Assembly: GCA_903918755.1 (NCBI GenBank)
Contig: CAIXFN010000014.1
Location: 62,001 to 126,000, forward strand
Direction of reading: 5' to 3'
From: an uncultured Pedosphaera sp.
GTDB taxonomy: Bacteria > Verrucomicrobiota > Verrucomicrobiia > Limisphaerales > Pedosphaeraceae
Length of the DNA: 64,000 nt
Shown here: positions 26,728 through 43,951 of the stretch, piece by piece
Position numbering within the stretch: position 1 is the stretch's first letter
Layout: each line of letters opens with the position of its first letter
The notes under the pieces: generated by a model
The model's input: only the letters and a program-made list of their open reading frames with translations
The model's database searches: none
Told to the model about the DNA's origin: nothing
Translations under genes and position numbers: made by a program

Positions 26728-29088
26728 ATGAATAACAATTTGAATGATCGTCCGGCATCCGGAATGAGTCTGCCGGATGTTTACTTCGTACTGTTCCGCC
26801 ACAAGTGGAAGATCCTGCTGTGCTGCGCCATCGGCGTGGCGGGGGCCGCGGCGCATGCAATTTTTCTGCCCGCCCCATACCAGTCGTCGGCGATCCTCAG
26901 CGTGGATTACGGCTTGGGCTCAAAAAGTTCGCGCGTGCCCGGGGAACAGCAGCAGCGATCCCAAATGTCCATAACCGCGGGGGAGATGTTGCTCAACACG
27001 GAAATCGAGATCCTGCGGAGCTATGATGTCTGCCGCCGGGCGGTGACCAATTTTGGGGCGAGCAAAATTCTGGCCAAGTTGGGGGGCGGTTCAGATCCCA
27101 ATGCCGCGGCAATGGCAATTCGGAAGCGGTTGGTGGTGGAGCACCCGAAAACGAGCAGTCTGATCACCATTTCGGTGACCCATCCGGACCCTTTTGTGGT
27201 GCAACCGGTCCTGCAAGCGTTGATAGACGAATATCACAAGCGCAATCTCGAAATTCACAATGATCTGCCCCAACTCGATGCCGTCATGCAGGAGCGGGTG
27301 GCGGAATTGGGCAACCGGGTCTCCGTGGCGCAGGACGCGTTAAAGCGCAAGCGGAGTGAAACCGGAGTAATTTCCCCCGACGATGAGGCCCGGGAATTGT
27401 CCGGGCTGATTGGAGCAACGCGGAAGGAACTTAACACCGCGCAGGCGGATCTGGCGGAGCGGGTCGCCATTTTCCATCAAATTGTGGGCATAAACCTGCT
27501 GACGCAGACCAATAATCCGCCCGTGGGCCCGGAGTTGCCGGCAAATTCGCCCGACAAATCCACGACGGTGGCGCCCCTGACCAGCTCCAACAGTGCGCCC
27601 AGCCCCGCCGTGCCGGAACCGGCCACGGCGCTGGCGGATCCGCCGGAAGCAAAGTTAAATGAGTTCCGGACCATCACCAACCTCTATATGAGCACTTTTC
27701 TGGAGCGGGAAAAGGCGATGGGGATTTTCACGCCGGAGAGCAGTGAAGTCAAAAAGCGCACGATGTTCCTGGAGGACTTGGACAAGAAGCGAGCCGCTCT
27801 GGTGAAGGAATATCCCAAGCTGGATCAGCCCGCGCCGGCAGCGCCCGGGCGGGTGCAGGTCGCATCCAGCTATTCATCGCCCAGTTATATCTCCACAGGC
27901 CCGCTGTTTGACACCAACCGGGAGGCTGGCATCATCGAAGGCTTGCGCATGCGGATCGGGGAGTTGCGGAATCAAATGGTCAATTACAATTCGACCAGCA
28001 CCAACCTCAACAATGTGGCGGGCGAGATGCGGCATTTGGAGAAGGAATTGGCGACGGCGGAGGAAGTATACAAGAGTTACCTGCTGGAGTTGCAAACGAT
28101 TCACACCATCCAGCAGATTGACAACCGGGATCTTTCAAAAATACCCACGACGGAACCCCCTACGCCCCCCTTGCGAAATTTGAGCAAGACGATCAAGGTG
28201 GCAACGGCAATCTTGATTGTGTGGGTGGTGGTGGGATTTGTCTGGGCGTTCCTGATCGAGTTGGTCTTTGATCACTCGGTGAAGCGGGTCAAGGATATCG
28301 AAGGCCAGTTGGGCCTGCAAGTGCTGCTGTCCCTGCCGCAGGTAAAAGCGGCCGCGGCCCGGGAATTGACGGAGCGGGAGCGGCTGCTCATCGGCCAGTG
28401 GGAGAAGGCCCCCCCGGCAAACCCGGACGAGACGGCTGAGGTGGCGCCAAGGCCGCAGCAAAATACCGGTCTGCTAACCTATCACGAGGCCCTGCGTGAC
28501 CGCCTGATCTCCTATTTTGACGTGCGCAATCTGACGCACAAGCCGAAATTGGTAGCGGTGACCGGGGCCGGGGCCGGGGTGGGAACCTCCACGATTGCGG
28601 CGGGGTTGGCGGCGTCACTCTCCGAGACGGGCGAAGGCAATGTGCTCCTGGTGGATATGAATCCCGAGAACGGGGCGGCGCACCATTTCTTCAAAGGCAA
28701 ATTGGCCGTGGAACTGACGGATGCCCTGGAGGATGGGACCCGGGAGAACGGCTTTATCCAGAAGAATCTGTACGTGGCCACCGGAAATGGGAACGGTGAT
28801 AAACTGCCGCGAATCCTGCCCAAGCGCTTTGCCAATCTGCTCCCCAAGCTGAAAGCCAGCGACTACGACTATATTATTTTTGACATGCCCGCGATCAGCC
28901 AGACCAGCATCACGCCGCGATTGGCGGGATTCATGGACATCGTGTTGATGGTGGTGGAATCCGAAAAGACGGACCGGGATGTGGCGCAACGGGCCAATGC
29001 CATGCTGGCGGAATCGAAAGCCAACGTGAAAGTGGTGATGAACAAGACCAAGCGGTATGTGCCGGTCAGTCTGCTGCCCGAATCCTGA
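26728..29088 (+). CDS. Wzz/BY-kinase-like polysaccharide co-polymerase with altered P-loop
   Basis: 786 residues. An N-terminal Wzz domain (first membrane helix about residues 27-50, MSLPDVYFVLFRHKWKIL before it) is followed by a long coiled-coil periplasmic part. A second helix lies at about 490-515 (IKVATAILIVWVVVGFVWAF). The C-terminal domain resembles CpsD/BY-kinase: Walker A' VLLVDMNPE, Walker B YDYIIFDMPA. The Walker A reads TGAGAGVGTST at about 612-622, with Thr620 where the invariant Lys should be. The C-terminus has no Tyr cluster. It probably sets chain length or export through ATP-domain contacts, but autokinase activity is doubtful. Confidence 0.87.
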   Translation: MNNNLNDRPASGMSLPDVYFVLFRHKWKILLCCAIGVAGAAAHAIFLPAPYQSSAILSVDYGLGSKSSRVPGEQQQRSQMSITAGEMLLNTEIEILRSYDVCRRAVTNFGASKILAKLGGGSDPNAAAMAIRKRLVVEHPKTSSLITISVTHPDPFVVQPVLQALIDEYHKRNLEIHNDLPQLDAVMQERVAELGNRVSVAQDALKRKRSETGVISPDDEARELSGLIGATRKELNTAQADLAERVAIFHQIVGINLLTQTNNPPVGPELPANSPDKSTTVAPLTSSNSAPSPAVPEPATALADPPEAKLNEFRTITNLYMSTFLEREKAMGIFTPESSEVKKRTMFLEDLDKKRAALVKEYPKLDQPAPAAPGRVQVASSYSSPSYISTGPLFDTNREAGIIEGLRMRIGELRNQMVNYNSTSTNLNNVAGEMRHLEKELATAEEVYKSYLLELQTIHTIQQIDNRDLSKIPTTEPPTPPLRNLSKTIKVATAILIVWVVVGFVWAFLIELVFDHSVKRVKDIEGQLGLQVLLSLPQVKAAAARELTERERLLIGQWEKAPPANPDETAEVAPRPQQNTGLLTYHEALRDRLISYFDVRNLTHKPKLVAVTGAGAGVGTSTIAAGLAASLSETGEGNVLLVDMNPENGAAHHFFKGKLAVELTDALEDGTRENGFIQKNLYVATGNGNGDKLPRILPKRFANLLPKLKASDYDYIIFDMPAISQTSITPRLAGFMDIVLMVVESEKTDRDVAQRANAMLAESKANVKVVMNKTKRYVPVSLLPES

Positions 29089-29164
29089 TTGAGATTCCAG
29101 TCTACCGGTCCCTCCCTGTTGGGAGCTTCCGCCAGGGTTGGTGGAGCCCTGCAGTTCTGAGCTG

Positions 29165-31303
29165 ATGAGCCGCTTATACTACTTGGTCAAACCGTTCCTG
29201 CCCCGAGCCGTCCGCGTGGTGATGCGGCGGCGCATTGTCCAACGGCAACGCAAAAAGGTGACGGGAATCTGGCCGATTGCCGAGCAGAGTGGGAATCCTC
29301 CGGCGGGCTGGCCCGGGTGGCCGGAGGGGAAGAAATTCGGCTTCGTCCTGACGCATGATGTGGAAGGGCCGGACGGCCTGGCCAAGTGCTTGGAGCTGGC
29401 CAAATTGGAACGAGAGGCCGGTTTTCGCTCGGCGTTTAATTTCATCCCCGAAGGCGACTACCGGGTAACCCGGGAAATGCGCGAGGCATTAACCGGGCAA
29501 GGTTTTGAGGTGGGGGTGCACGATTTGCACCATGACGGACACCTTTATCGCAGTCGCACTGATTTCGCAGCTCATGCCCGACGGATCAATGATTACTTGA
29601 AGGAATGGGGGGCGGTGGGTTTTCGGTCGGCCTTCATGATGCACCGGTTGGACTGGATCGGGGATTTGAATGTGGCCTACGACCTGTCGACCTTCGATAC
29701 CGACCCTTTTGAACCGCAACCCGACGGCGTCGGCACCATCTTCCCGTTCTGGCAAACGCGGCCCAATGGCGAGTCGTTCCTGGAATTACCTTACACGCTG
29801 CCCCAGGACTCGACGCTTTTTGTATACATGCAGGAAACCACGATCGAGGTATGGAAGCGGAAACTTGACTGGGTGGCGGCGCGGGGTGGAATGGCATTGT
29901 TGAATGTCCATCCGGATTATATGAGTTTTGCCGGGCAACCGCCCCATTCGTTTCAATTTCCCGTGCGGTATTACCAGGAATTGCTCGATTATATGAAAGA
30001 GAAGTATGCCGGTCAATATTGGCACGGGACGCCCCGTGAGTTGGCCTTCTGGCACCGGCAGGTGGCCCCGCCGGCCTCGGACACCGCGACCCGGTTGGCG
30101 AGTGCGGAGCGGGTGCTCACCGGCAAGTCGGCGCTGGTGCTCCTTTATTCCTATTATCCATCCGACCCCCGCCCGCGCCGGGAAGCGGAAGCCCTCGTCA
30201 ATGCCGGGATGGATGTGGAACTCATTTGCCTGCGGCAAGGTGCGGAGGAACCGGTTCACGAGATCATCAATGGGGTGAAGGTCCGACGGGTCTCGTTGCG
30301 GCGGCGACGAAATTCAGCGGTGACCTACGTGTTGCAGTACGGCTATTTCATATCCTGGTGCGCGCTGGCGGTGGCGGGTCGGACCCTGCGGCGGCGGTAT
30401 GACTTGGTGCATGTGCACAATATGCCCGACATTCTGGCCTTCGGCTCGGCGGCGGCGAAATTGCGCGGCGCGCGCGTGATTCTGGACCTGCACGATCCCA
30501 TGCCCGAACTCATGCGGGCGATGTTTGGGTTCGGCGAGCAAAGCAAGGGAGTGCGCCTGCTGAAGTTTTTGGAAAAGCTCAGCATCGGATTTGCCGACCA
30601 GGTAGTTACACCGAATGTCTCGTTCAAACACATTTTCGGTTCGCGGAGTTGTCCCGAGGAGAAGATTCAGGTGGTGATGAATTCCCCGGACGAAAAAATC
30701 TTCCGGTTTCGCGCCAGTCCGCCGGTGACCCGGGTGCCGGGAAAACCCTTCGTGATCATGTACCACGGCGCGATCGTGGAGCGGCATGGTCTGGATTTGG
30801 CGGTGCGGGCGGTGCAGGCGGTGCGGGAGAAAATCCCCGGGGTGGAATTACGGATTTACGGGACGCGAACCCCGTTCCTGGATACCACGATGGAACTGGT
30901 CCGTAAGGAAGGGTTGGAGTCGGTGGTGAAGTATCTGGGGCCGAAATCGCTGGATCAGATCGCCGAGGCGATCGATGAATGTGATTTGGGCGTCGTACCC
31001 AACCGGCGTAGTATTTTCACCGAGTTGAACATGCCCACCCGGATATTTGAATATCTTTCGCGGGGGATTCCGGTGATCGCGCCGCGAGGCACCGGAATCA
31101 CCGACTATTTCGGCGACAGCGAGCTGTTGTTTTTTGAATTGGGGGATACCGCGGATCTGACCCGTCAGATTGAGTATGCCTATGCCCACCCAGAAGAGGT
31201 CCGGGCCATCACGGTGCGGGGTCAGTCGGTTTATTCCAAGCATTGCTGGAGCCGGGAAAAGGTCGCCTTTATTAACCGGGTGACCGAGCTTTTGGCCAAG
31301 TGA
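29165..31303 (+). CDS. polysaccharide deacetylase-glycosyltransferase family 4 fusion
   Basis: 712 residues from the ATG at 29165. Residues about 55-310 are a NodB-type deacetylase: LTHDVEGPDG holds the catalytic Asp pair region, GVHDLHHDGHLY the metal-binding His motif, and LNVHPDYM the late His. Residues about 330-710 are a GT-B glycosyltransferase of family 4: YSYYPSDPRPRREAEALV, YDLVHVHNMPD, DLHDPMPE, and the nucleotide-sugar site FTELNMPTRIFEYLSRGIPVIA. The two enzymes presumably act one after the other on a lipid-linked sugar. No frameshift separates them. Confidence 0.87.
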   Translation: MSRLYYLVKPFLPRAVRVVMRRRIVQRQRKKVTGIWPIAEQSGNPPAGWPGWPEGKKFGFVLTHDVEGPDGLAKCLELAKLEREAGFRSAFNFIPEGDYRVTREMREALTGQGFEVGVHDLHHDGHLYRSRTDFAAHARRINDYLKEWGAVGFRSAFMMHRLDWIGDLNVAYDLSTFDTDPFEPQPDGVGTIFPFWQTRPNGESFLELPYTLPQDSTLFVYMQETTIEVWKRKLDWVAARGGMALLNVHPDYMSFAGQPPHSFQFPVRYYQELLDYMKEKYAGQYWHGTPRELAFWHRQVAPPASDTATRLASAERVLTGKSALVLLYSYYPSDPRPRREAEALVNAGMDVELICLRQGAEEPVHEIINGVKVRRVSLRRRRNSAVTYVLQYGYFISWCALAVAGRTLRRRYDLVHVHNMPDILAFGSAAAKLRGARVILDLHDPMPELMRAMFGFGEQSKGVRLLKFLEKLSIGFADQVVTPNVSFKHIFGSRSCPEEKIQVVMNSPDEKIFRFRASPPVTRVPGKPFVIMYHGAIVERHGLDLAVRAVQAVREKIPGVELRIYGTRTPFLDTTMELVRKEGLESVVKYLGPKSLDQIAEAIDECDLGVVPNRRSIFTELNMPTRIFEYLSRGIPVIAPRGTGITDYFGDSELLFFELGDTADLTRQIEYAYAHPEEVRAITVRGQSVYSKHCWSREKVAFINRVTELLAK

Positions 31304-31608
31304 TGTCCGGGGAGCACGGGCGAGGTTGAATCTTGGGCGAAGCCGGGCGGCAGGGCGCAAGGAGCGCATGACCATCGTATTGGCCAAGCGGGCTTAGGAG
31401 CCATCATCGCGGAGCTTTATCAGCGGTTCTAAATGGAGCGGGAGCTTGCCCGGAAGGAACGGGCCCATAGTATCCTGATGTGTGACGGGGTGGCTGTCGT
31501 GACGAGATCGGTGGTCACCAGGGATTGCAGCGTGCCTTGGATCTACGCCAGCAATCCGACCCGTCACCTCCGCAAGTTGTAATTTATTTGTTCAAATCCA
31601 AAAGCATC
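31304..31608. other. 305-bp intergenic region
   Basis: No gene is supported here. A weak sigma-54-like element (TTGG at 31537-31540, GC at 31551-31552, 10 bp between) lies about 58 bp before the next gene, but the match to consensus is partial. The first half could be degraded coding sequence, since it is GC-rich with short open frames, but nothing is recognisable. Confidence 0.25.
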
Positions 31609-32841
31609 ATGAATTCAGATACCTTGACAACCCCGAATTTGCCCGGCATCCAGGAGATCAAGCGCAGCGTGGATGCGGTGCAAAAATGGGTCGAGGACCG
31701 CAACTACTGCGGTTACGAACCATTTGACGGGCTTTCCTCGGTGTTCCGGCCCCTGACGTTTCACAACCTGTTCGCGGAACGATTGCTGATGCAATTGATC
31801 CGGCAGAGTCCGATCAATTTGCGGCCGCTGTTCGGGGTGACGAAGAAGGAATCGACCAAGGGGCGGGGCTACATGGCGTGGGGTTACCTCGCAATGTACC
31901 ATGCCACGCGGCAGAAGGATTATCTGAATAAGGCGACCGCCTGCCTGGATTGGTTGGACCATCACAAGGCGCCGAAGTATGCGAAGCACAGTTGGAGCAA
32001 CCATTTCGATTTCTCCAGCCGGGGGGGTGGCTACACCAAGGATGATCCGATCATTGTGTGGACCTCGCTTATTTGTCAGGCCTATCTGGAGGCTTATGAG
32101 CAGACGCAGGAGCCGCGCTGGCTGAAGATTGCGGAGAGCGCGTGCGGTTGGATCATGGATTTGCCCCGGGAGCAGACGGAGAAGGGGGCGTGCCTTAGTT
32201 ACCTGGCGCATGTGCAAAGTTCCATCCACAACTCCAACATGCTGGGAGCGGCGGTGCTGGCGCGGACGGCCAAGCACAATGGCAACCAGGAATATCTGAA
32301 AGTGGCGCGTTCGGGCATGGAGTATAGCTGCTCACGGCAGCGCCCGGATGGTTCCTGGCCATACGGGGAGCATCCCAAGTACAGTTGGATCGACAATTTT
32401 CACACGGGTTACAACCTCAACAGCTTGAAGTGCTACATGGATTATTCCGGGGACGAGACCTGGCGGCACCAGTTCCGGCACGGGCTGGAATATTACAAAC
32501 AGAATTTCTTCGAAGCCGACGGGTGTCCGAAATACTATCATAACCGGAAGTTCCCAGTGGACATCCAGTGTGCGGCCCAGTCGATTGAATCGCTGGCGGA
32601 ATTTTCCGATGAGGATCCCGAATGCCTGGAGTTGGCCCGGCGGGTGGCGGGCTGGACGATCGCGAACATGCAGGATCCGAAGGGGTATTTTTATTACCGG
32701 CAATATCCGGGCATCACGGCCCGCATTCCGATGCTGCATTGGGGGCAGGCGACCACCTTCCGGGGAATGGCCTTGCTGTATGACAAACTTGCCCTGCGCG
32801 GAGGGCCGGCAGCGATCAACGCCAAAGGGACAAAGAAATAA
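31609..32841 (+). CDS. predicted alpha/alpha-toroid protein of the EPS locus
   Basis: 410 residues from the ATG at 31609, cytoplasmic by lack of a signal. The chain is a series of helix pairs with aromatic and Gly turns (GRGYMAWGYLAMYHAT, YLNKATACLDWLDHH, WTSLICQAYLEAYEQT, QRPDGSWPYGEHPKYSWIDN, FHTGYNLNSLKCYMDY). These suggest an (alpha/alpha)6 barrel like those of glycoside hydrolases, uronyl epimerases or lyases. The QRPDGSWPY motif recalls terpene-cyclase-type toroid QW motifs too. No catalytic set can be assigned. Its place among glycosyltransferases suggests action on the polymer or its lipid carrier. Confidence 0.7.
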   Translation: MNSDTLTTPNLPGIQEIKRSVDAVQKWVEDRNYCGYEPFDGLSSVFRPLTFHNLFAERLLMQLIRQSPINLRPLFGVTKKESTKGRGYMAWGYLAMYHATRQKDYLNKATACLDWLDHHKAPKYAKHSWSNHFDFSSRGGGYTKDDPIIVWTSLICQAYLEAYEQTQEPRWLKIAESACGWIMDLPREQTEKGACLSYLAHVQSSIHNSNMLGAAVLARTAKHNGNQEYLKVARSGMEYSCSRQRPDGSWPYGEHPKYSWIDNFHTGYNLNSLKCYMDYSGDETWRHQFRHGLEYYKQNFFEADGCPKYYHNRKFPVDIQCAAQSIESLAEFSDEDPECLELARRVAGWTIANMQDPKGYFYYRQYPGITARIPMLHWGQATTFRGMALLYDKLALRGGPAAINAKGTKK

Positions 32842-32907
32842 GGGCGTGGCAGACCTGAGAGCGGACACTCCGGACAGGGAGATCTTTCGGGCGGTGAGAC
32901 CAACTCA

Positions 32908-33801
32908 ATGAAAACCCCAAACTTGACCTATGTGCTGGTATCGCCGGCACGCAATGAAGAAGACTACATTGAATTGACGATTCAGTCCGTGGTGAAACAG
33001 ACCCTCCGGCCAAAAAAATATGTGATTGTCAGCGACGGTTCCACGGACCGGACGGACGAGATCGCCCGCAAATATGCGGCCCAACACGACTGGATAGAGT
33101 TCGTGCGCATGGGGGAGCGGACGGAACGGGATTTTGCCGGCAAGGTGGGCTGTTTCAACGCCGGTTATGCGCGGCTGAAGGGGTTGGAGTATGATATTGT
33201 CGGCAGCCTGGATGCGGATTTGTCGTTTGATGAGGATTACTTCAAGTATTTGTTGGAAAAGTTTGAAGCCGATTCACGCCTGGGCCTGGCCGGCACGCCG
33301 TTCAGTGAGGAGGGCAGGACGTATGATTTCCGCTTCAGCAGTACGGATCATGTGTCTGGAGCCTGCCAACTCTTCCGGCGCAATTGCTATGAAGAAATCG
33401 GTGGTTACAAGCCGGTCAAGGGCGGGGGCATTGACACGATTGCCGTGTTGAGTGCGCGGGTGAAGGGGTGGCGCACGCAGACTTTCACGGAGAAGAGCTG
33501 TCTGCATCACCGCCCCATGGGCAGCGCGGGTCGGCGCGGCAAGTTGATCGTAAACTTCAAGTTGGGGCAGAAAGGGTATACGCTGGGTGTTTCGCCCGTG
33601 TGGCACGTTTTTCGTTCCATTTATCAAATGAGTCGCCCGCCTTATGTGCTGGCCGGGGGAGCGCTGCTGCTGGGTTATTTTGCGGCCATGATCAAGCGGG
33701 TGCCGCGGGCGGTCAGCCAGGAAGTAATAGACTTTCAACGGAAGGAGCAGATGAAACGGCTCCGGCAATTTTTCAAACTGGCGCCCAAGGATCCGGCCTA
33801 G
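32908..33801 (+). CDS. glycosyltransferase family 2
   Basis: 297 residues. The GT-A fold is clear: VSPARNEEDYIELTIQSVVKQT at the N-terminus, VSDGSTDRTDEIA, and SLDADLSF with the DxD-like metal site at about residue 100. The C-terminal part has an amphipathic or membrane-associated stretch (PPYVLAGGALLLGYFAAMIKRVP, about 246-268). It adds a sugar to the lipid-linked repeat unit on the cytoplasmic face. Confidence 0.9.
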   Translation: MKTPNLTYVLVSPARNEEDYIELTIQSVVKQTLRPKKYVIVSDGSTDRTDEIARKYAAQHDWIEFVRMGERTERDFAGKVGCFNAGYARLKGLEYDIVGSLDADLSFDEDYFKYLLEKFEADSRLGLAGTPFSEEGRTYDFRFSSTDHVSGACQLFRRNCYEEIGGYKPVKGGGIDTIAVLSARVKGWRTQTFTEKSCLHHRPMGSAGRRGKLIVNFKLGQKGYTLGVSPVWHVFRSIYQMSRPPYVLAGGALLLGYFAAMIKRVPRAVSQEVIDFQRKEQMKRLRQFFKLAPKDPA

Positions 33802-33900
33802 TGCGGCCGGCCAGTGCCAAGCGCTTTTGCTGACTTGAAGCAATAAAGCGAAGCGCGCGAGTACGGCGGAGACCCGGGAACCGCCGCCAAATGGTAGTAT

Positions 33901-34779
33901 ATGAATTTTGCCCAAACTGAATTAATCACCAAAGGCCGTTGGCTGAAAACCCTGCGGCTGCGGAATGAATGGTATGATTTTGTCACCCAGCCGGAGCAGT
34001 TTGTCCGAGAATTGAAGGAGTCAAAGCCACGCGCCGACCTATTCACGTTCCTGGGGGAAATTCCGGATCGGGACACGGCGAAATACCCCTTTTTTCACGA
34101 ATGGGAGACCATCGCGGTTTTGCCCATCACCACCTATGAACATTGGTGGAAGAACCAGATCAACGACAAAACCCGGAACATGGCCCGCAAGCCGGGCAAG
34201 AAGGGCGTGGAGATCCGGTTGGTGGAATTCAGCGACGATTTGGTGCGCGGCATCATGGGGATCAACAACGACTGTCCCATGCGCCAGGGGCGGCCTTTCT
34301 GGCATTACGGAGCGGATTTCGAGACCACGAAGCGGGTCAATATCAGTTATCTGGAAACGAGCCAATTTGTGGGGGCTTACCTGGGGGACGAATTGATCGG
34401 ATACATCAAGCTGGTTTTCGGCGATCGAAAGGCGAGCCTGATGCAGATTCTGGCGAAAATTTCCCAACGGGACAAAGCGCCGACGAATGGGTTGATGGCG
34501 AAAGCAGTGGAGATCTGCGCGGCCCGGAATATCCCGCACTTGCATTACGCGTTATTTAGCCGCCGCGGGTTGGGTGAATTCAAAATGAACCACGCCATGG
34601 AACCGTGGCGGGTGGCACGGTATTTCCTTCCATTGAATGCCAAGGGCAGCATCGCGCTCAAGCTCAACTTGCAGCACAAATGGTCCGACTATCTCCCCGG
34701 GGAATGGGTGGACAAATTGGTGGACTTGCGGGTAAAGTGGTATGGTAACCGCGTGAAAGACAAGGCGCCGCCGGAGTAA
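33901..34779 (+). CDS. uncharacterised protein, possible FemAB/GNAT-like acyltransferase
   Basis: 292 residues, soluble. I do not recognise it with certainty. The middle and C-terminal parts are laid out like a GNAT/FemAB fold: QFVGAYLGDELIGYIKLVFGD reads as the central strand pair, and a helix TNGLMAKAVEICAARNI and the segment LHYALFSRRGLGEFKMNHAM follow. The last segment resembles the motif HFGRTS-x-NEGLRRFK of the FemAB-like protein at 25603-26652. The stop is 19 bp before the first tRNA-like unit of the array, so gene and array are probably co-transcribed. If it is FemAB-like, an aminoacyl-tRNA donor would be natural. Confidence 0.55.
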   Translation: MNFAQTELITKGRWLKTLRLRNEWYDFVTQPEQFVRELKESKPRADLFTFLGEIPDRDTAKYPFFHEWETIAVLPITTYEHWWKNQINDKTRNMARKPGKKGVEIRLVEFSDDLVRGIMGINNDCPMRQGRPFWHYGADFETTKRVNISYLETSQFVGAYLGDELIGYIKLVFGDRKASLMQILAKISQRDKAPTNGLMAKAVEICAARNIPHLHYALFSRRGLGEFKMNHAMEPWRVARYFLPLNAKGSIALKLNLQHKWSDYLPGEWVDKLVDLRVKWYGNRVKDKAPPE

Positions 34780-34798
34780 CGGGGGCGGGTGAGTTTTC

Positions 34799-34873
34799 GG
34801 GGTCGTAGTTTAATGGGCAAAACGTCCCGCGCAAGCGGGGAGACGAAGCGTTTGAATCCTTCCGACTCCACCA
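34799..34873 (+). ncRNA. tRNA-Ala-like non-decoding RNA, unit 1
   Basis: Acceptor stem GGGGTCG (34799-34805) pairs with CGACTCC (34863-34869), with one G-T wobble at position 3-70; A73 and an encoded CCA follow. T8 and A9 are present. The D-arm GTTTAATGGGCAAAAC (34808-34823) has a 4-bp stem and keeps A14, G18, G19 and A21. The anticodon arm (34825-34841) lacks U33 and folds best as CCCGC-GCAA-GCGGG, a GNRA-capped hairpin. The T-arm stem GAAG-G/C-CTTC carries a bulged C and its loop is TTTGAAT, with U in place of C56. G3-U70 with A73 is the recognition set of alanyl-tRNA synthetase, which ignores the anticodon. Decoding seems impossible; charging with alanine seems possible. Confidence 0.65.
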
Positions 34874-34897
34874 GTTCGCATTAGTAGATTCAATTTC

Positions 34898-34972
34898 GGG
34901 GTCGTAGTTTAATGGGCAAAACGTCCCGCGCAAGCGGGGAGACGAAGCGTTTGAATCCTTCCGACTCCACCA
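34898..34972 (+). ncRNA. tRNA-Ala-like non-decoding RNA, unit 2
   Basis: Identical in sequence to unit 1. The 24-nt spacer before it differs from the others by a T at spacer position 12. Confidence 0.65.
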
Positions 34973-34996
34973 ATTCGCATTAGCAGATTCAATTTC

Positions 34997-35071
34997 GGGG
35001 TCGTAGTTTAATGGGCAAAACGTCCCGCGCAAGCGGGGAGACGAAGCGTTTGAATCCTTCCGACTCCACCA
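34997..35071 (+). ncRNA. tRNA-Ala-like non-decoding RNA, unit 3
   Basis: Identical in sequence to unit 1. The spacer before it begins with A rather than G. Confidence 0.65.
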
Positions 35072-35095
35072 ATTCGGATTAGCAGATTCAATTTC

Positions 35096-35170
35096 GGGGT
35101 CGTAGTTTAATGGGCAAAACGTCCCGCGCAAGCGGGGAGACGAAGCGTTTGAATCCTTCCGACTCCACCA
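35096..35170 (+). ncRNA. tRNA-Ala-like non-decoding RNA, unit 4
   Basis: Identical in sequence to unit 1. The spacer before it begins with A and has G at spacer position 6. Confidence 0.65.
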
Positions 35171-35194
35171 GTTCGCATTAGCAGATTCAATTTC

Positions 35195-35269
35195 GGGGTC
35201 GTAGTTTAATGGGCAAAACGTCCCGCGCAAGCGGGGAGACGAAGCGTTTGAATCCTTCCGACTCCACCA
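35195..35269 (+). ncRNA. tRNA-Ala-like non-decoding RNA, unit 5
   Basis: Identical in sequence to unit 1. It is the last unit; the spacer-like sequence stops within three bases after its CCA, and the epimerase gene starts 70 bp later. Confidence 0.65.
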
Positions 35270-35339
35270 GTTTTAAATGACGGAGCAGCGGTCCGGCCGG
35301 CCGAAGGGCAGGCCGGAAGCGCAAGTTTAAAAGCTTAAA

Positions 35340-36407
35340 ATGTCCGCCGTAATTAAAGAGAAAATCGCCGGCCCCGAAGAGGTGATGTTGATCACGGGGG
35401 CAGCCGGATTCATTGGGGTGAACGTGGTGCAAAGCATGATCAACCAAGGATACCGGAACTTGCGTTGTCTGGTCCGGCCCTCGGGTAACCCGGCCGCATT
35501 AGAACGGTTGGGCCGAAACGCCCCCGCCGGGACGCGAGTGGAAATATTGCGGGGAAATCTGCTTTCGCCGACGGATTGTGACGCCGCGGTGCGGGGAGTG
35601 GCGGTCATCTACCATCTGGCGGCGGGAACCGGGGAGAAATCCTATCCGGATGCGTTCATGAATTCGGTGGTGACCACGCGCAACCTGCTGGAGGCGGCGG
35701 TCCGCGACGGGAAGGTCAAGCGTATTGCCAGCATCAGTTCTTTCGCGGTGTATTCGAACCGGAATAAGTTGAAAAGCGGGTTGCTGGATGAAACCAGTCC
35801 CGTGGAGGAGGATCCCAAACTGCGGGGGGAGGCTTATTGCTACGCCAAGCTGAAACAGGATGAGATCATTCAAGAATACGGTGTCCGGCATGGGCTGAAG
35901 TATGTAATCCTGCGTCCCGGCGTGGTTTTCGGACCGGGGAAGGCTTCGGTGTCCGGCCGAGTCGGGCGGGATCTGGGGATTTTCCTGCATATGGGGGGAG
36001 GCAATCCCATTCCGTTTACTTTTGTGGAAAACTGTGCCGATGCCATCGTGCTGGCCGGTTTGGTCAAGGGAGTGGAGGGGGAGGTTTTTAACATTGTGGA
36101 TGATGATTTGCCTTCCAGCCGCACCTTCCTGCGGAATTACAAACGGGAGGTTCGGCGCTTCCGGTCAGTTTATGTACCGAAGTTTGCCAGCTATCTGCTT
36201 TGCTATTATTGGGAGAAGTACTCCACCTGGTCCCGGGGACAATTGCCGCCGGTGTTCAACCGGCTGGCCTGGCATGCGTATTACAAAGGCAGCCGTTACT
36301 CCAACCAAAAGCTGAAGGACCGGCTGGGCTGGGAACCGAAGGTGAGCATGGCCGCGGGAATGAAACAATTTTTTGATGCCTGCCGGCAACGGAGGTCAAA
36401 TGCTTAA
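35340..36407 (+). CDS. NAD-dependent epimerase/dehydratase (extended SDR)
   Basis: 355 residues. The nucleotide motif GAAGFIG is at about residue 20, the serine of SISSFAVYS and the YCYAKLK catalytic Tyr-Lys pair are in the middle, and FTFVENCADAIVLA is in the C-terminal half. It most likely acts on a nucleotide sugar, or on a lipid-linked sugar, in the surface-polymer pathway. The start follows the tRNA-like array by 70 bp, and the stop overlaps the next gene by 8 bp. Confidence 0.87.
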   Translation: MSAVIKEKIAGPEEVMLITGAAGFIGVNVVQSMINQGYRNLRCLVRPSGNPAALERLGRNAPAGTRVEILRGNLLSPTDCDAAVRGVAVIYHLAAGTGEKSYPDAFMNSVVTTRNLLEAAVRDGKVKRIASISSFAVYSNRNKLKSGLLDETSPVEEDPKLRGEAYCYAKLKQDEIIQEYGVRHGLKYVILRPGVVFGPGKASVSGRVGRDLGIFLHMGGGNPIPFTFVENCADAIVLAGLVKGVEGEVFNIVDDDLPSSRTFLRNYKREVRRFRSVYVPKFASYLLCYYWEKYSTWSRGQLPPVFNRLAWHAYYKGSRYSNQKLKDRLGWEPKVSMAAGMKQFFDACRQRRSNA

Positions 36408-37533
36408 GGTTGCGATTGTCGGATGCGGCAAGATCGCCGACGCCCATGCGGAAATGCTGACGCAGGTGGCGGGGTGTGAAATGGTGGCCGTGTGCGACCG
36501 GGAGCCGCTGATGGCGCGGCAGCTGTATGACCGGTTTCCGATCAAGTCCTGGTATAGTGATTTGGGCAAGCTCCTGGACAAAGCCCGGCCCGATGTGGTG
36601 CACATCACCACCCCGCCGCAGACGCATTATGAGCTGGGCCGGTTGTGCCTGGAACACGGCTGCCATGTTTATCTGGAAAAGCCGTTCACCATCGACGCGA
36701 TCGAAGCGGAGAAAATAGTCCGGCTGGCGACGGAGAAGAAACTCAAGGTGACCGTGGGAAATGATGCCCACTTCACGCATGCCGCCCGGCGGTTTCACGA
36801 GATCGTGCAGGCGGGGTATCTCGGGGGGGCCCCGGTGCACATGGAGAGCTATTACTGCTCCGAGCTGCGGGGCAGCTACGCGAAGGCCTTGCTGGGCGAC
36901 CGGCATCATTGGGTGCGGCGCCTGCCGGGAAAACTGTTGCACAACATCATCAGCCACGGGGTGGTGCGGATTGCCGAATTCATGCCCGACAATGACCCGC
37001 AGGTGGTGGCGCACGGGGCGATCAGCCCGCTGCTGCAAAGTTTCGGGGAGACGGAGATCATTGATGAATTGCGGGTGATCGTGGCCGGGCGGAGCGGGGT
37101 GAGCGCGTATTTCACCTTTTCCTCGCAGATGCGACCCTCGCTGCACCAGTTCCGCGTTTATGGCCCCACCAACGGCCTGGTGCTGGATGACGATGAGCAG
37201 TCCGTGATCAAATTGCGGGGAGCCCGTTTCAAGAGCTACGCGGGCAAATTCCTGCCGCCGGTATTTTACGCCCGGCAGTACTGGCAAAATCTGACGCGCA
37301 ATGTCAACTTGTTCCGGCGCCGCGACTTCCACTTGAAGGGGGGCATGAAGCACCTGATCGAGGCGTTTTACCGTTCGATCACCGAGGACGCCCCTTTGCC
37401 GATTTCACACCGGGAGATTGTCCTCACCTGCCGGATCATGGACGCCATTTTCGCCCAAATCCAGACTCCGGCGGCGGTGGCGGCGCGCAACGCCGCGGCC
37501 GCGGCGGGTGCCCCGGTGCCGGCACAGTCGTAG
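36400..37533 (+). CDS. Gfo/Idh/MocA family oxidoreductase
   Basis: 377 residues from the ATG at 36400, preceded by a strong GGAGG at 36391-36395. Rossmann loop VAIVGCGKIADAHAEML, then DVVHITTPPQTHYELG and CHVYLEKPFTIDAIEAEKI with the catalytic Lys-Pro. The C-terminal third departs from the family norm (a region around FYARQYWQNLTRNVNLFRR) and ends Ala-rich. It overlaps the epimerase by 8 bp and probably works on the same sugar. Confidence 0.87.
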   Translation: MLKVAIVGCGKIADAHAEMLTQVAGCEMVAVCDREPLMARQLYDRFPIKSWYSDLGKLLDKARPDVVHITTPPQTHYELGRLCLEHGCHVYLEKPFTIDAIEAEKIVRLATEKKLKVTVGNDAHFTHAARRFHEIVQAGYLGGAPVHMESYYCSELRGSYAKALLGDRHHWVRRLPGKLLHNIISHGVVRIAEFMPDNDPQVVAHGAISPLLQSFGETEIIDELRVIVAGRSGVSAYFTFSSQMRPSLHQFRVYGPTNGLVLDDDEQSVIKLRGARFKSYAGKFLPPVFYARQYWQNLTRNVNLFRRRDFHLKGGMKHLIEAFYRSITEDAPLPISHREIVLTCRIMDAIFAQIQTPAAVAARNAAAAAGAPVPAQS

Positions 37534-37680
37534 TTCCTCGGCAAGGAAACCTTAAACCGCCTCCAAGCTGCGGCCCCAAGCTGAGGGCAGAAGGGGGGCG
37601 GGTAAGAATGGCAAGCGGTGCTCACTCGCGGGCATTTTCCGAAGCGGAATTAGCGGGCGGAGAAATTCATCAAAGAGTCC

Positions 37681-38526
37681 ATGAAGGCAAAGATCCAAAA
37701 TCTATTAAAAAGCTTAGGCTTGTATCACCGCGTCCAGGCATCCGTTTTGTACGATTGGTATTGGAACGTGGCGGACCGGCGCCAAATCCAGAAGCGGGTC
37801 GGAGAAATGGATTTCTACCGGACGTTACTCGAGGGCTTCCGACCGGGCGATGTCATTTTTGACGTGGGGGCGAATCACGGCCAGAAGACTGATATTTTCC
37901 TGCGGCTTGGGGCCCGGGTGGTTTCGGTTGAACCCGATGAGAGCAATCAGGCGATTCTGCGGCAGAAATTCCTCTGGCTCCGCTTGAACAAGCGGCCCAT
38001 GGTGGTGGTGGAGAAGGCGGCAGGCGAGGAATGTGTCACCAAAACCATGTATATCGACGCGCCCGGTTCGGCCAAGAACAGCCTGAGCCAAAAGTGGGTG
38101 GATACCCTGCGCACGGACGACAAGCGGTTCGGAAAAGCCCTGGAGTTTGCCTCCAAAAAGACGGTTGAAACCACCACACTGGAGCATTTGATTGCGGCGC
38201 ACGGCCTGCCTTACTTCATCAAGATCGATGTGGAGGGGTATGAGCCCAATGCGATCAGTGGTTTGAAATCGCCAGTTCCCTACCTCTCTTTCGAAGCAAA
38301 TCTGCCCGAATTCAAGCCGGAGACCATTGAATGCGTGGACCTCCTGGCCAAGCTGGACCCCGCGGGATTGTTCAATTTTGCCGTGGAAACGCCCGCCCGA
38401 TTGGCGCTGCCTCGCTGGGTGGATCGCAAGGAATTCTTGCGGCTGTTTGAAACCTGCCGGGAGTCCAGCATTGAGGTGCTGTTCAAGTCCGCCGCGGGCC
38501 AAAGGGCGCACGCGAAGAAGAATTGA
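37681..38526 (+). CDS. FkbM family methyltransferase
   Basis: 281 residues. The SAM-binding start FDVGANHGQKTDIFLRLGARVVSVEPD is at about residue 60 and the C-terminal FIKIDVEGYEPNAISGL motif at about residue 180; both are hallmarks of FkbM. It probably O-methylates a sugar of the polymer. A 147-bp gap precedes it. Confidence 0.9.
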   Translation: MKAKIQNLLKSLGLYHRVQASVLYDWYWNVADRRQIQKRVGEMDFYRTLLEGFRPGDVIFDVGANHGQKTDIFLRLGARVVSVEPDESNQAILRQKFLWLRLNKRPMVVVEKAAGEECVTKTMYIDAPGSAKNSLSQKWVDTLRTDDKRFGKALEFASKKTVETTTLEHLIAAHGLPYFIKIDVEGYEPNAISGLKSPVPYLSFEANLPEFKPETIECVDLLAKLDPAGLFNFAVETPARLALPRWVDRKEFLRLFETCRESSIEVLFKSAAGQRAHAKKN

Positions 38527-38586
38527 ACGCCCAAGGCTGGGGCGCGTCCAAGAACCACTCCGTCGCCGGGCGGCGCGGAAAATTTG

Positions 38587-39828
38587 ATGCAGAATAGCGA
38601 ACCAGTCGGGAGCAGGCGGACGGAGGCGGACGGCGCCCCACAACGGGTGGCGTTGTTGACGGGCGGCGGGGACAAGGCATATTCCCTGGCCCTCGCCGTG
38701 GCGCTGAGCGCGGCGGGTAATGAGGTGGACTACATTGGTAGTGATGAGCAGGACGACGCCCGCCTGCGCAACGACCCGCGAATCCGATTCCTCAACCTGC
38801 GCGGATCCCAAAGCGCCAAGGGCGGGGCGGCGGGCAAGCTGGTGCGGGTGCTGATCTATTACGGCAAGTTGATCCGCTACGCCGCCACCGCCCGGGCGCG
38901 GGTCTTTCACATTTTATGGAACAACAAGTTCCAGGCCTTTGACCGCACCGGGTTGATGCTGTATTACCGGCTGTTGGGGAAAAAGGTGGTGATGACCGCC
39001 CACAATGTTAATGCCGGCAAGCGGGATGGCAAAGATTCGTGGTGGAATCGATTCACGTTGCGGATGCAGTACCGCCTGACCCAGCAGCTCTTTGTCCATA
39101 CCGAGCGGATGAAGCAGGAACTGGTGGCGGAATTCCAAGTGCCGAGGGGCAAGGTGACCGTGATTCCCCACGGGATCCACAATTCGGTGCCCGCCACCGC
39201 AATGACCCAGGCCGAAGCCCGGCAGCGGTTGGGCCTGCCGCCGCGCGACAAGACGTTGCTTTTTTTCGGAAACGTGGCTCCGTACAAGGGCGTGGAGTAT
39301 CTGGTGGCGGCATTTAATCAATTGGCGGTGCCGGGAACGGACTACCGGTTGATCATTGCCGGGCGCTGCAAGGATTGCCCGGATTACCGCCGGCAGATTG
39401 AACAGGCGGTGCGGGAGGGGGGCGCGGCGGACCGGGTAAGTATGCGGATCGAATTCATTCCCGACGCGGAAACCGAAGTTTATTTCAAAGCCGCAGATGT
39501 GATGGTCCTGCCCTACACCTTCATCTTCCAGAGTGGCGTGCTCTTCCTTGCGTACAATTTCGGACTGCCGGTGATCGCTTCGGATTTGGAAGCATTGCGG
39601 GATGAGATCGTGGCCGGTGAGACCGGGTTGGTATTTCGGACGCTGGATGCCGCGGATTTGGCGCGGGCGATTCGGCAATATTTCGGGAGCGAGCTCTACC
39701 GGGATTTGGAAGTCCGGCGATTACGCATTCAGGAGCATGCCAATGAACATTATTCGTGGGCCAAGGTGGCGGCGATGACCACGCAGGTTTATGCGGCGGC
39801 AGCCGGGGGCCGGGCCGCCAAAGTCTAA
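38587..39828 (+). CDS. glycosyltransferase family 4
   Basis: 413 residues from the ATG at 38587 (a TTG directly before it is possible). GT-B fold: N-terminal VALLTGGGDKAYSLALAVALSAAG, then VVMTAHNVNAGKR, KVTVIPHGIH, the domain-swap LLFFGNVAPYKGVEYLVAAF, and the donor site YTFIFQSGVLFLAYNFGLPVIA. It adds a sugar to the lipid-linked intermediate. Only 12 bp separate it from the flippase gene. Confidence 0.92.
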   Translation: MQNSEPVGSRRTEADGAPQRVALLTGGGDKAYSLALAVALSAAGNEVDYIGSDEQDDARLRNDPRIRFLNLRGSQSAKGGAAGKLVRVLIYYGKLIRYAATARARVFHILWNNKFQAFDRTGLMLYYRLLGKKVVMTAHNVNAGKRDGKDSWWNRFTLRMQYRLTQQLFVHTERMKQELVAEFQVPRGKVTVIPHGIHNSVPATAMTQAEARQRLGLPPRDKTLLFFGNVAPYKGVEYLVAAFNQLAVPGTDYRLIIAGRCKDCPDYRRQIEQAVREGGAADRVSMRIEFIPDAETEVYFKAADVMVLPYTFIFQSGVLFLAYNFGLPVIASDLEALRDEIVAGETGLVFRTLDAADLARAIRQYFGSELYRDLEVRRLRIQEHANEHYSWAKVAAMTTQVYAAAAGGRAAKV

Positions 39829-39840
39829 TTTTCGAGTCCC

Positions 39841-41361
39841 ATGATGCAAAATAAGAACCAACAGGCAGCCGCCGGCGGGGCACTTGCCACCGGGCATTTG
39901 CTGGCGGGAATCAAGGGGCGGACGATCAGCAGTTCGGTGGTGACTTTTGCGGCGCAAGGAGGCCAGGCGGTACTGCAGGTCGGTTCCATCGTAGTGTTGG
40001 CGCGCCTGCTCACACCGGTGGATTTCGGGTTGCTGGGGATGGTGCTTTACATCACCGGATTCTTGCGCGTTTTCAATGATGCGGGGCTCTCGACGGCCAC
40101 AGTGCAGCGGGAAGGCATCACCCAGGCGCAAGTGTCCAATCTTTTCTGGACCAATGTCGCGCTGGGAGGGTTGGCCACGGGGTTGCTGGCGGCCGCGGCG
40201 CCACTGGTGGCGTGGTTTTACAAGGAGCCGCGGCTCGTGGGGGTGACGCTGGCGGTTTCGATCACCTTCCTGCTGACGGGGTCCACGGTCCAGCACCTGG
40301 CATTGCTCAAGCGGCAAATGCGGTTTGGGGCGATTGCGGCGATCCAGACGATCGCGATGGCGATGGGGGTGGTGGTGGCCACAGTGATGGCCTGGCTGGG
40401 CTGCGGCTATTGGTCACTCGTGGGGATGCAGGTGGCGCCGCCGCTGCTCGCGTTTGTGCTGACTTGGACGACTTCGCGCTGGCGACCGCACCTGCCGCAG
40501 CGGGGGCATGGCATGCGGGAACTTTTGGGCTTTGGCGCCAATCTGACTGCGAGCAGTTTTCTCTGGTCGCTGGCCAAGGGGAGCGATGCGATGCTGATCG
40601 GCAAGGTTTACGGAGCCGCCTCCCTGGGGCTTTACACCCGGGCGGCCTCGCTCTTCCAGCGGCCGGTGGAATTGTTCATCGATCCGTTGAACTACGTGAT
40701 TGTGCCGACGCTCTCGCGCCTGCAAACCCAACCGGAGCGGTATCACCGGACTTATATGCGGGTGTTTGAATTAGTGGCCGTCGTCAGCTTTCTATTTAGC
40801 GGTCTGCTGCTGGCGCTGGCCAAGCCGATGACGCTGGTATTGCTGGGGGCCAAATGGGGCGAGGCTGCCCCGATTTCAGCCAGTTTGACCCTGGTGGCGC
40901 TGTATCATCCGATCGCCTGCGCCAATGGCTGGTTGCTGACCAGCCAATGTCGCGGGCGGGAGGCGCTCATCTTGAGCATCATTTCGTCGGTGGCGGCGGT
41001 GATCTCTTTTCTCCTTGGGCTCCGCTTCGGCCCGGTTGGAGTGGCGCTTTGCTACTCAATTTCCTGCCTGTTGGTCCGTTTGCCAGTGGCCTTTTATATC
41101 ACCGGGCGGCAAGGCCCAGTGGGGACGCAGGAACAGTGGAGCCGGTTTTTGACGCATTTGCCGGTTTGGATAATCGTCTGCGGTTCCACGGTCGTGGTCC
41201 AGAAACTGGTGGCGGAGATGAAACCGATGGCGCAGCTCTTGATTTGTGTGCCGGCCGGATTGACAATAGGGACAGCGTTTATCTTTGCCTACGCCCCGGC
41301 GCGGCGTTCGATCATGGGATTGGTGGAGGCGTTGCGGGAGTTCAAGAAGGGACGGGCTTGA
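39841..41361 (+). CDS. Wzx/WzxC-type lipopolysaccharide flippase
   Basis: 506 residues with about 14 membrane segments, of the MOP exporter superfamily. The N-terminal FAAQGGQAVLQVGSIVVLARLLTPVDFGLLGMV motif is typical of WzxC-like flippases, as is GLYTRAASLFQRPVELFIDP in the middle. It moves the completed lipid-linked repeat unit across the inner membrane. Confidence 0.92.
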   Translation: MMQNKNQQAAAGGALATGHLLAGIKGRTISSSVVTFAAQGGQAVLQVGSIVVLARLLTPVDFGLLGMVLYITGFLRVFNDAGLSTATVQREGITQAQVSNLFWTNVALGGLATGLLAAAAPLVAWFYKEPRLVGVTLAVSITFLLTGSTVQHLALLKRQMRFGAIAAIQTIAMAMGVVVATVMAWLGCGYWSLVGMQVAPPLLAFVLTWTTSRWRPHLPQRGHGMRELLGFGANLTASSFLWSLAKGSDAMLIGKVYGAASLGLYTRAASLFQRPVELFIDPLNYVIVPTLSRLQTQPERYHRTYMRVFELVAVVSFLFSGLLLALAKPMTLVLLGAKWGEAAPISASLTLVALYHPIACANGWLLTSQCRGREALILSIISSVAAVISFLLGLRFGPVGVALCYSISCLLVRLPVAFYITGRQGPVGTQEQWSRFLTHLPVWIIVCGSTVVVQKLVAEMKPMAQLLICVPAGLTIGTAFIFAYAPARRSIMGLVEALREFKKGRA

Positions 41362-41461
41362 GGGCGTTCACAATCCTGGTGGGGCAGTGCCCTGCCTGCC
41401 TGACTTGAGTGCGAAACTGCCATCGCCCGGCCAGTTGCCGGCTGGGGAGTCGCCGGATTGC

Positions 41462-42151
41462 GTGAAGCAGTATCGGGCCGGGGGATTGTTGGTCCGGAAA
41501 GTGCGGTGGGGACTCTCCTGGCGGGGGCGCCTGCTGGTTTTGGGGTTCGTTCTGCTGGCCGGCGGGGGGCTATTTTTCGGGAGTTACCCGTTTCTCGCGG
41601 TGACCGAGCGGGAGGAGACGGATTTCCTGGTGGTGGAAGGGTGGGTGCATCAGTACGGCGCGCGTGGGGCGGCGGCGGAATTCATTCGTGGGCACTACCG
41701 GCAGGTTTTCACCACGGGCGGCCCGGTGATGGGAAGCGGACCCTACAGCAATGACGCCAACACGGGCGCGTGGGTGGGGGCGGAGGTGGTCAAACGGGCG
41801 GGAATTCCGGAAGCGGTTGTGCAAATGGTCCCCTCCCGGGTCCAGGGGCGGGATCGGACCTACAACTCGGCACTGGCGCTGCGCCGGTGGTTGCGGGAAC
41901 ATCAAATAAAGCCGCGCAGCCTCAATGTGCTGACCGAGGATGCGCACGCGCGGCGCACGCGGTTTTTGTTCCAGATGGCGTTCGGGGATGAACTGAAGAT
42001 CGGCATCATTTCGGTGCCGAGTCCGGACTATGAGCCCCGGCGGTGGTGGAGTTGCAGCGAAGGGGTGCGGGAGGTGATCGGCGAAAGTATTGCCTACGGT
42101 TATGCCCGTTTTTTCTTTCATCCCGAAGGGCGGGGGGAAGCGGAACCGTGA
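41462..42151 (+). CDS. DUF218 (SanA/YdcF/ElyC-like) membrane protein
   Basis: About 229 residues from a GTG at 41462; the frame is open upstream and a TTG at 41405 is possible. One N-terminal membrane anchor (LLVLGFVLLAGGGLFFGSYPF) precedes a DUF218 domain: DFLVVEGWVHQYG, FTTGGPVMGSGPYSN, RVQGRDRTYNSALALRRW and LNVLTEDAHARRTRFLF. The family is linked to envelope polymer metabolism (ElyC, SanA) without a fixed reaction. It lies within the locus between the flippase and heptose genes. Confidence 0.75.
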   Translation: MKQYRAGGLLVRKVRWGLSWRGRLLVLGFVLLAGGGLFFGSYPFLAVTEREETDFLVVEGWVHQYGARGAAAEFIRGHYRQVFTTGGPVMGSGPYSNDANTGAWVGAEVVKRAGIPEAVVQMVPSRVQGRDRTYNSALALRRWLREHQIKPRSLNVLTEDAHARRTRFLFQMAFGDELKIGIISVPSPDYEPRRWWSCSEGVREVIGESIAYGYARFFFHPEGRGEAEP

Positions 42152-42178
42152 GGGCGGCGGGGTCGCGGTGAATTTTAG

Positions 42179-42793: not shown

Positions 42794-42800
42794 TCCGGCC

Positions 42801-43910: not shown

Positions 43911-43951
43911 TGGCAACTTCATTGGCAGCGAAAAGCTTAATATTCTGACGT

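Follow-up and report, generated by a model that had tools for sequence, protein, structure and literature searches.

Five anticodon-less alanine-type tRNA units in tandem beside a predicted Fem-type transferase gene of an uncultured Pedosphaera sp.

Why should a bacterium keep five identical copies of a tRNA body that has no anticodon to read? This question is raised by a tandem array in an uncultured Pedosphaera sp. (GenBank assembly GCA_903918755.1, contig CAIXFN010000014.1, positions 62,001 to 126,000), the 64,000 nucleotides of which were analysed here as a whole and are referred to as the window. The array begins 19 bp downstream of a transferase gene lying on the same strand (Table 1). 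We consider it very probable that the array constitutes a dedicated alanine carrier, used by this adjoining Fem-type transferase. The established part of the case consists of the anatomy of the units, their identity elements, their linkage to the enzyme gene, the fold of the encoded protein, covariation and conservation.

Anatomy and alanine identity of the array units

The array is composed of letter-identical 75-nt units repeated every 99 bp, as stated by the first-pass annotation (a note made from the sequence without database searches) and borne out by copy comparison and Tandem Repeats Finder (period 99, 4.8 copies, 98% matches, score 928). Each unit possesses a 7-bp acceptor stem, GG at positions 18-19, a T-stem with a bulged C, U at position 56, A73 and an encoded CCA. 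The anticodon arm reads CCCGC-GCAA-GCGGG and has no U33; a GCAA tetraloop, closed by a 6-bp stem (TCCCGC/GCGGGG), replaces the anticodon loop, and the unit lacks the 7-nt loop, U33 and anticodon of a decoding tRNA. GNRA and UUCG tetraloops are unusually stable. The annotation had described this same anatomy, and the sequence confirms it; its picture of a tRNA body devoid of a decoding loop within a polysaccharide locus is likewise right. Its statement that no described RNA family fits had to be abandoned, since the Infernal-type scoring that it had proposed assigns every unit to the Rfam tRNA family (RF00005) at 40.9 bits against a gathering score of 29. ARAGORN calls no tRNA anywhere in the window. 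No tmRNA, a class marked by a tag open reading frame and a tmRNA core, was found in the window by ARAGORN or Rfam.

In the acceptor stem, GGGGTCG pairs with CGACTCC, which gives G2-C71, G3.U70 and G4-C69, followed by A73 and CCA. The D-loop, AATGGGCA, supplies G20 according to our own D-loop numbering. Table 1 of PMC9976931 names A73, G2-C71, G3.U70, G4-C69 and G20 as the bacterial alanine determinants and gives no anticodon determinant for this amino acid; every determinant in that table is present in the window unit, which on sequence has the identity required for charging with alanine. Two tRNA genes of the host, tRNA-Ala CGC and tRNA-Ala GGC, share the 5' acceptor strand GGGGTCG with it. 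Alanyl-tRNA synthetase ignores the anticodon. Judged by their sequence, the array units are alanine tRNAs deprived of the anticodon. The first-pass annotation had recognized the non-decoding tRNA body, and overlooked G3.U70, the likeness to host tRNA-Ala and the adjoining Fem-type transferase. In the organism's own genome, 47 other tRNA matches were listed (150 of 190 candidates scored), and ARAGORN assigns a type to all 47.

When the unit was used as a blastn query, no matches beyond the five array units were obtained in its own assembly (7.19 Mb, 118 contigs), nor any in the genomes of 57 relatives. As only one of the 58 genomes, its own, was matched, relatives were traced via the neighbouring protein.

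The partner enzyme and its linked tRNA genes

Taken alone, the window transferase shows no match in Pfam, NCBIfam or PDB sequences, the Pfam FemAB family included. Among 76 members of its family, Pfam matches at E≤1 were obtained to FemAB in 41 (best 8.9e-6) and to Acetyltransf_1 (GNAT) in 47. An AlphaFold2 model (mean predicted local distance difference test score 95.5, predicted template modelling score 0.91) was structurally aligned with the top chains found by Foldseek. Rows 1-11 of this alignment are all aminoacyl-tRNA-dependent transferases, namely FemX, FemA and Sba18/Sbb17. The best match, FemX 6snr (Z 19.0, 241 residues, 3.6 Å), identifies a double-GNAT fold; Sba18/Sbb17, with or without streptothrisamine (PDB 9wqy, 9wqw, 9wqx), share it at Z 17.1-17.7, and Weissella FemX and Staphylococcus aureus FemA score 16.7-17.2. 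Row 12 is a tandem GNAT of a different kind (Z 16.0), and MprF entries stand below it (13.2-15.4). The gene product is therefore predicted, from the fold of its model, to be a Fem-type aminoacyl-tRNA-dependent transferase. It resembles FemX and FemA (PDB 6snr, 7z5y, 1lrz) at Z 17.0-19.0 over 228-244 residues, yet differs from them in its sequence (12-14% identity, below the detection of Pfam FemAB) and in belonging to a polysaccharide rather than a peptidoglycan context.

A search of 245 genomes of the same order revealed the protein in nine besides its own, and seven of these nine carry a nearby tRNA or tRNA-like gene (none at loci L050 and L052). The search also matched L046, a fragment located close to where the L045 contig ends, which has no tRNA of its own. 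The protein was not found in 386 other genomes drawn from the phylum. A scan of GTDB with one genome per species was evaluated for the best 80 of 92 relatives, i.e., 79 distinct loci (one contig occurs under two bins), seven of which coincide with contigs already counted among the nine same-order relatives. They are labelled Verrucomicrobiota, Acidobacteriota, Nitrospirota, several proteobacterial groups, Bathyarchaeota and a few others. Most loci reach 6 kb to either side of the transferase, and the longest extend to 12.9 kb. ARAGORN detected 25 tRNA genes at 24 of the 79, all of them within 1,173 nt of the transferase match and 24 of the 25 on its strand. Our covariance model and descriptor add L058, L067, L069 and L070; because the model was built in part from these very units, only the Ser-type and a few other model hits are independent, and L067, which scores weakly in it (E 3.5), is included for its resemblance to L069 and L070. 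Altogether, a linked tRNA gene occurs at 28 of the 79 loci, on the transferase strand in 27, the exception being a tRNA-Cys at L120. These loci are labelled Verrucomicrobia, Acidobacteria, Nitrospirae/Nitrospira, Syntrophobacteraceae, Beijerinckiaceae, Nitrosospira and beta proteobacterium. Adding the window, G088 (L047) and G003 (L049) brings the set to 31 loci with 32 units, as L099 contributes two and the window unit is counted once.

tRNA genes are common integration sites, and the units might be integration-site or phage tRNAs present by chance. We regard this as the least probable of all explanations considered, since members of one gene family adjoin the tRNA in 31 loci, nearly always closely and on the same strand, and no integrase occurs among the neighbour families listed (25 of 28 and 25 of 48).

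The linked gene is positioned downstream of the transferase in most loci and upstream in some. At three loci it overlaps the 3' end of the transferase frame (L056:3869-3900, L057:6854-6885, L058:6855-6864). Directly downstream of position 6879, L098 shows a second frame that by eye resembles the transferase start, possibly a pair of tandem paralogues. The archaeal homologues (L126, L127, L130-L135, and L124, labelled Crenarchaeota) form a separate clade in the transferase tree, and no linked tRNA was found at these loci.

Anticodon arms, T-stems and shared history of the linked units

By type, 15 of the 32 linked units are Thr, six Ala, five Ser, three Asn, two Gly and one Cys. Their anticodon loops were read from the sequences, as automatic loop length proved unreliable (7 in only 53 of 94 ordinary tRNAs). 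All six Ala units, from six loci, possess G3.U70 and A73, and all their anticodon arms end in a tetraloop, GCAA in three and UUCG in three. The five Ser units have in common G73, GGAGAGG and a long variable arm; in three of them a tetraloop (GCAA, ACAA or CUUG) closes the anticodon arm, and the other two carry an 8-nt loop that lacks U33. Serine identity is anticodon-independent according to an excerpt of PMC9976931. In turn, G35 and U36 are kept in 15 of 15 Thr units, UCC in both Gly units (C35 and C36 in the table of PMC9976931) and GUU in all three Asn units (G34, U35 and U36 in the same table). Thus every one of the 11 Ala and Ser units, whose synthetases do not read the anticodon, has an abnormal anticodon loop or arm, and every one of the 20 Thr, Gly and Asn units, whose synthetases do, retains letters 35-36, a split that falls short of 31 independent events because units are related within types. 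On the transferase tree, the Ala type requires two changes and the Ser type three.

Two of the Thr units are odd: L128:7005-7080 has an 8-nt anticodon loop and L089:2184-2259 has A33, so that decoding is damaged while G35 and U36 are kept. The tRNA-Cys (L120:7184-7257), which lies 317 nt away from the transferase match and on the other strand, has U33 replaced by G; it may serve as a dedicated carrier of cysteine or simply be the ordinary gene.

For 23 of the 32 linked units the best-fitting T-stem contains a bulge of one nucleotide, as against none of 94 other tRNAs; of these controls, 47 come from the organism's own genome and 47, which weakens the comparison, are the best-scoring among the matches listed for the three genomes with Asn-type loci. 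In 17 of the bulged units, namely the window Ala unit and all but one of the 17 Thr and Gly units, the extra nucleotide separates positions 52 and 53 on the 5' side of the stem; in the other six, L058 and the five Ser units, it is on the 3' side. D-loops could be read by script in 29 linked units; ten of these, all of Thr or Gly type, lack the GG, as do five of the 94 other tRNAs, one of which has no readable loop. EF-Tu grips the T-stem. The bulge is suggestive of a weaker binding by this factor, as far as can be told from sequence.

The six Ala units were aligned over the acceptor, D and anticodon-arm stems, with a structure drawn from these same sequences. Of the cells, 98.1% are paired, and nine of 18 pairs are altered on both sides; 0 of 500 shuffles scored as high on four measures and two of 500 on the fifth, and sliding the pairing partner destroys the signal. 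A second alignment of 14 distinct bulged Thr and Gly units with the window unit, the bulge drawn in, gave 98.7% paired cells, 11 of 21 pairs altered on both sides, and 0 of 500 shuffles as high on all five measures. As many units are interrelated, both the shuffle and the Fisher values overstate independent support.

This covariation, a check proposed by the first-pass annotation, bears on whether the array is a functionless, dying tandem repeat derived from a tRNA. The absence of an ARAGORN call, the loss of C56 and of the anticodon, the tandem copies and the lack of a blastn match in the 57 other relatives would all suit such decay. Yet none of the 75 unit columns varies among the copies against three of 24 columns in the four spacers (P 0.013 for all three landing in the spacer if variation were random over 99 columns), half of the pairs are altered on both sides across six loci, and in several phyla a tRNA is linked to this partner gene. 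We hold decay to be very improbable.

Identical linked tRNAs accompany transferases that are 70-73% identical at L106, L110 and L118, and in L106 and L110 the sequence separating gene and tRNA shows 60% identity. Each of the three genomes with an Asn-type locus also has a further, different tRNA-Asn (L161, L176, L196), among the 16 of 39, 19 of 50 and 14 of 38 matches compared; the linked tRNA-Asn is therefore extra. In G247:C368 (L193, L202), a second tRNA-Asn, on a short contig, resembles the one linked at L107; no transferase homologue was found on the L202 contig.

A quick-search transferase tree of 80 rows, with 36 of its 77 inner branches drawn open, accommodates the tRNA labels in 15 changes as compared with 29.7 after shuffling, none of 200 shuffles being as low, a clustering that near-copies favour; tRNA-bearing rows alone required seven. 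The window groups with L047, L058, L056, L057 and L066 (support 93), and interspersed with these are L059, which has no tRNA, and L049, of Ser type. The enzyme and the tRNA type travel together on this tree.

The switching of amino-acid type along the tree also bears on the possibility that the units are charge-sensing or regulatory RNAs, such as a leader reporting alanine status, instead of donors. Their position between co-directional genes of one locus would be in keeping with this role. A leader, however, needs neither an encoded CCA nor synthetase identity nor a partner with the fold of an aminoacyl-tRNA-using enzyme, and the linked gene is upstream of the transferase in some loci but downstream in most. 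A regulatory role seems improbable, if less so than decay or chance integration. We rejected the dead repeat, the integration site and the regulatory leader alike.

Several points weigh against the carrier reading, besides the choice of controls and the relatedness of units given above. In the minimum-free-energy fold of an isolated unit the acceptor stem and the tetraloop hairpin are kept and the D and T arms are not, with a z of -1.27 and 21 of 200 shuffles equally stable; the cloverleaf assignment hence rests on covariance models and on covariation among relatives. G20 is found in just three of the six Ala units. Position 34 of the Thr units is U, C or A, as opposed to G34 in Table 1 of PMC9976931. 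The T-stem is regular in nine of the 32 units (L047, with one mismatch, L056, L057, L066, L089, the three Asn and the Cys), including four of the six of Ala type. By E-value, the top Foldseek row is VipF, a CoA-dependent acetyltransferase (TM 0.38). No starred branch of the tree contains the window. Finally, 51 of the 79 homologous loci showed no linked tRNA, and a rescan showed none hidden, so the enzyme is not always in need of a dedicated one. The hidden-tRNA scans (the descriptor over whole loci and a looser version over 500 nt on each side) gave nothing new at or above 23.5, a score at which one of 222 control stretches is found; the looser rescan starts 20 nt inside the reading frame and passes over the known L056 and L057 units, which overlap the frame by 32 nt, and units overlapping it more deeply could escape likewise.

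Taking both sides together, we think it likely that these tRNAs represent a biosynthetic class, freed from decoding and inherited over several bacterial phyla as cassettes with one family of Fem-type transferases. The anticodon would have been dropped where the synthetase ignores it (Ala, Ser) and kept where it is read (Thr, Gly, Asn), and a swapped tRNA would re-program the amino acid placed on a surface polysaccharide.

Candidate mechanism, precedents and genomic setting

The array transcript would be cut into 75-nt RNAs that already end in CCA, five identical copies supplying a dose of carrier. The cell's alanyl-tRNA synthetase would charge them through the acceptor stem (G3.U70, A73); charging should still be possible because this synthetase reads the acceptor stem and needs no anticodon. 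The resulting Ala-RNA would be kept off ribosomes, as it has no anticodon to decode with and its bulged T-stem should weaken EF-Tu binding, probably to the point of poor capture. The Fem-type transferase would then move alanine from the RNA to an acceptor made by the exopolysaccharide locus. As the carriers that accompany this enzyme family in relatives are of Ser, Thr, Gly or Asn type, the linked tRNA would set the amino acid used.

The acceptor step is the weakest link of this mechanism. Fem-type enzymes couple the carboxyl of an amino acid to an amine, and their nearest solved relatives here include enzymes of amino-sugar antibiotics; the amino group of an amino sugar may thus be the likeliest acceptor. 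A polysaccharide is favoured as the recipient, with clearly less assurance than the carrier role itself. A smaller but appreciable chance remains that the donor side is right and the acceptor is a peptidoglycan precursor, a lipid or a small peptide made nearby, an alternative that shares the dedicated-carrier part and whose odds are not additional to it. The nearest folds comprise FemX/FemA (peptidoglycan) and MprF (lipid) besides Sba18/Sbb17 (amino sugar), and the frequent asparagine-synthase-like amidotransferase neighbour could mean a peptide-like product. Nevertheless, the surroundings are glycosyltransferase, O-antigen-ligase-type and flippase genes, and the window locus is of the exosortase type of exopolysaccharide loci, which speaks for the polysaccharide.

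Dedicated non-proteinogenic tRNAs for a Fem enzyme are already known from S. aureus, and the non-proteinogenic tRNA-Gly of this species is the closest precedent. According to excerpts of PMC4052509 and PMC9976931, it feeds a Fem-type transferase (FemXAB) and is barred from translation by changes in the T-stem and at 18-19; as described in PMC4052509, it departs from ordinary tRNA-Gly in weakened T-stem pairs and in the replacement of GG at 18-19. The linked Thr and Gly units similarly lose the D-loop GG. Compared with what these excerpts describe, the units reported here differ in that the anticodon is gone (Ala, Ser), the T-stem contains a bulged nucleotide, the gene is linked to its own transferase, and five, perhaps six, amino-acid types are involved. 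Sba18/Sbb17 and Orf11 of streptothricin-type pathways are likewise aminoacyl-tRNA-dependent and act on an amino-sugar-containing acceptor (PMC12945691, in part), but belong to natural-product pathways; the terms 'tRNA gene', 'dedicated' and 'anticodon' do not occur in the text of that review that was available. Canonical tRNA-Ala of the host (L020, L025) shares the GGGGTCG acceptor stem, G3.U70, A73 and CCA, whereas the window unit lacks the anticodon loop and has an altered D-arm, a bulged T-stem and U56. tmRNA also has an alanine-charged tRNA-like end (PMC3985003, in part); the 75-nt unit, in contrast, leaves no room for a tag frame. Among the matches listed (titles and starts of abstracts) in the open-licence PMC literature, which contains neither preprints nor subscription papers, none treats anticodon-less carriers or the linkage of tRNA genes to Fem-type transferases in polysaccharide loci. 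For a tRNA family linked to an enzyme gene, covering five or six amino acids and having lost the anticodon in two, we found no mention in this open literature.

How tRNA-borne amino acids are diverted from ribosomes is described as unclear for most such cell-wall enzymes in an excerpt of PMC4052509, and the diversion is framed as a competition with EF-Tu in one of PMC4810233. The cell studied here seems to solve this problem by separate tRNAs, which suggests that tRNAs can leave protein synthesis and be inherited within a biosynthetic pathway. The unit set may be viewed as a natural experiment on tRNA identity, in which one sees what survives when charging, and not decoding, is selected. The linked tRNA could also offer a way to predict the amino acid carried by a surface polysaccharide, and the units could serve as ready-made amino-acid carriers apart from translation.

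Table 1. Positions of the array units, the transferase gene and neighbouring features in the window
Feature	Position	Strand	Basis
Anticodon-less alanine-type tRNA, unit 1	34799..34873	+	Sequence anatomy, Rfam, copy comparison
Anticodon-less alanine-type tRNA, unit 2	34898..34972	+	Sequence anatomy, Rfam, copy comparison
Anticodon-less alanine-type tRNA, unit 3	34997..35071	+	Sequence anatomy, Rfam, copy comparison
Anticodon-less alanine-type tRNA, unit 4	35096..35170	+	Sequence anatomy, Rfam, copy comparison
Anticodon-less alanine-type tRNA, unit 5	35195..35269	+	Sequence anatomy, Rfam, copy comparison
292-aa transferase, double-GNAT (Fem/MprF type) fold; predicted aminoacyl-tRNA-dependent	33901..34779	+	AlphaFold2 model, structural alignment, family Pfam matches
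Glycosyltransferase family 2, directly upstream of transferase	32908..33801	+	Pfam PF00535, E 2.9e-20
NAD-dependent sugar epimerase/dehydratase, downstream of array	35340..36407	+	Pfam PF01370, E 1.5e-27
GFO/IDH/MocA sugar oxidoreductase	36373..37533	+	Pfam PF01408, E 3.1e-26
Surface-polysaccharide locus, outer limits estimated	22211..50696	+	NusG-like, FemAB-type, Wzz/tyrosine kinase, glycosyltransferases, flippase, heptose and dTDP-sugar genes, exosortase

The exosortase of the locus scores above the Pfam cut-off and below that of NCBIfam for XrtC (253.4 vs 300 bits). In the relatives, 153 direct neighbours of the transferase were called and 132 scanned (the remaining 21 being 19 on the opposite and two on the same strand). 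Of the neighbours scanned, 43 of the 65 downstream and 14 of the 67 upstream ones contain an asparagine-synthase-type amidotransferase, and 17 of the 67 upstream ones a family-2 glycosyltransferase (Glycos_transf_2). No such amidotransferase is present among the 28 window proteins, a part of the window's genes, that were scanned with Pfam.

A second Fem-type gene of the locus (25588-26652) exceeds the Pfam FemAB cut-off and is related to NCBIfam TIGR03019 (FemAB, XrtA/PEP-CTERM associated), but at 137.7 bits stays below the cut-off of that model (260.35). Elsewhere in the genome, the 6.9-kb contig C19 carries four odd tRNAs (L139, L147, L151 and L152, for Asn, Thr, Arg and His) scoring 35-60 bits, with T-arm letters GTGCGA for GTTCGA in three and GTGGGA in the Arg one; these are perhaps of phage or plasmid origin. 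Degenerate 96-bp tandem repeats lie at positions 61680-61858 and 63091-63293 of the window, inside a minus-strand frame (59028-63917) of 1629 aa.
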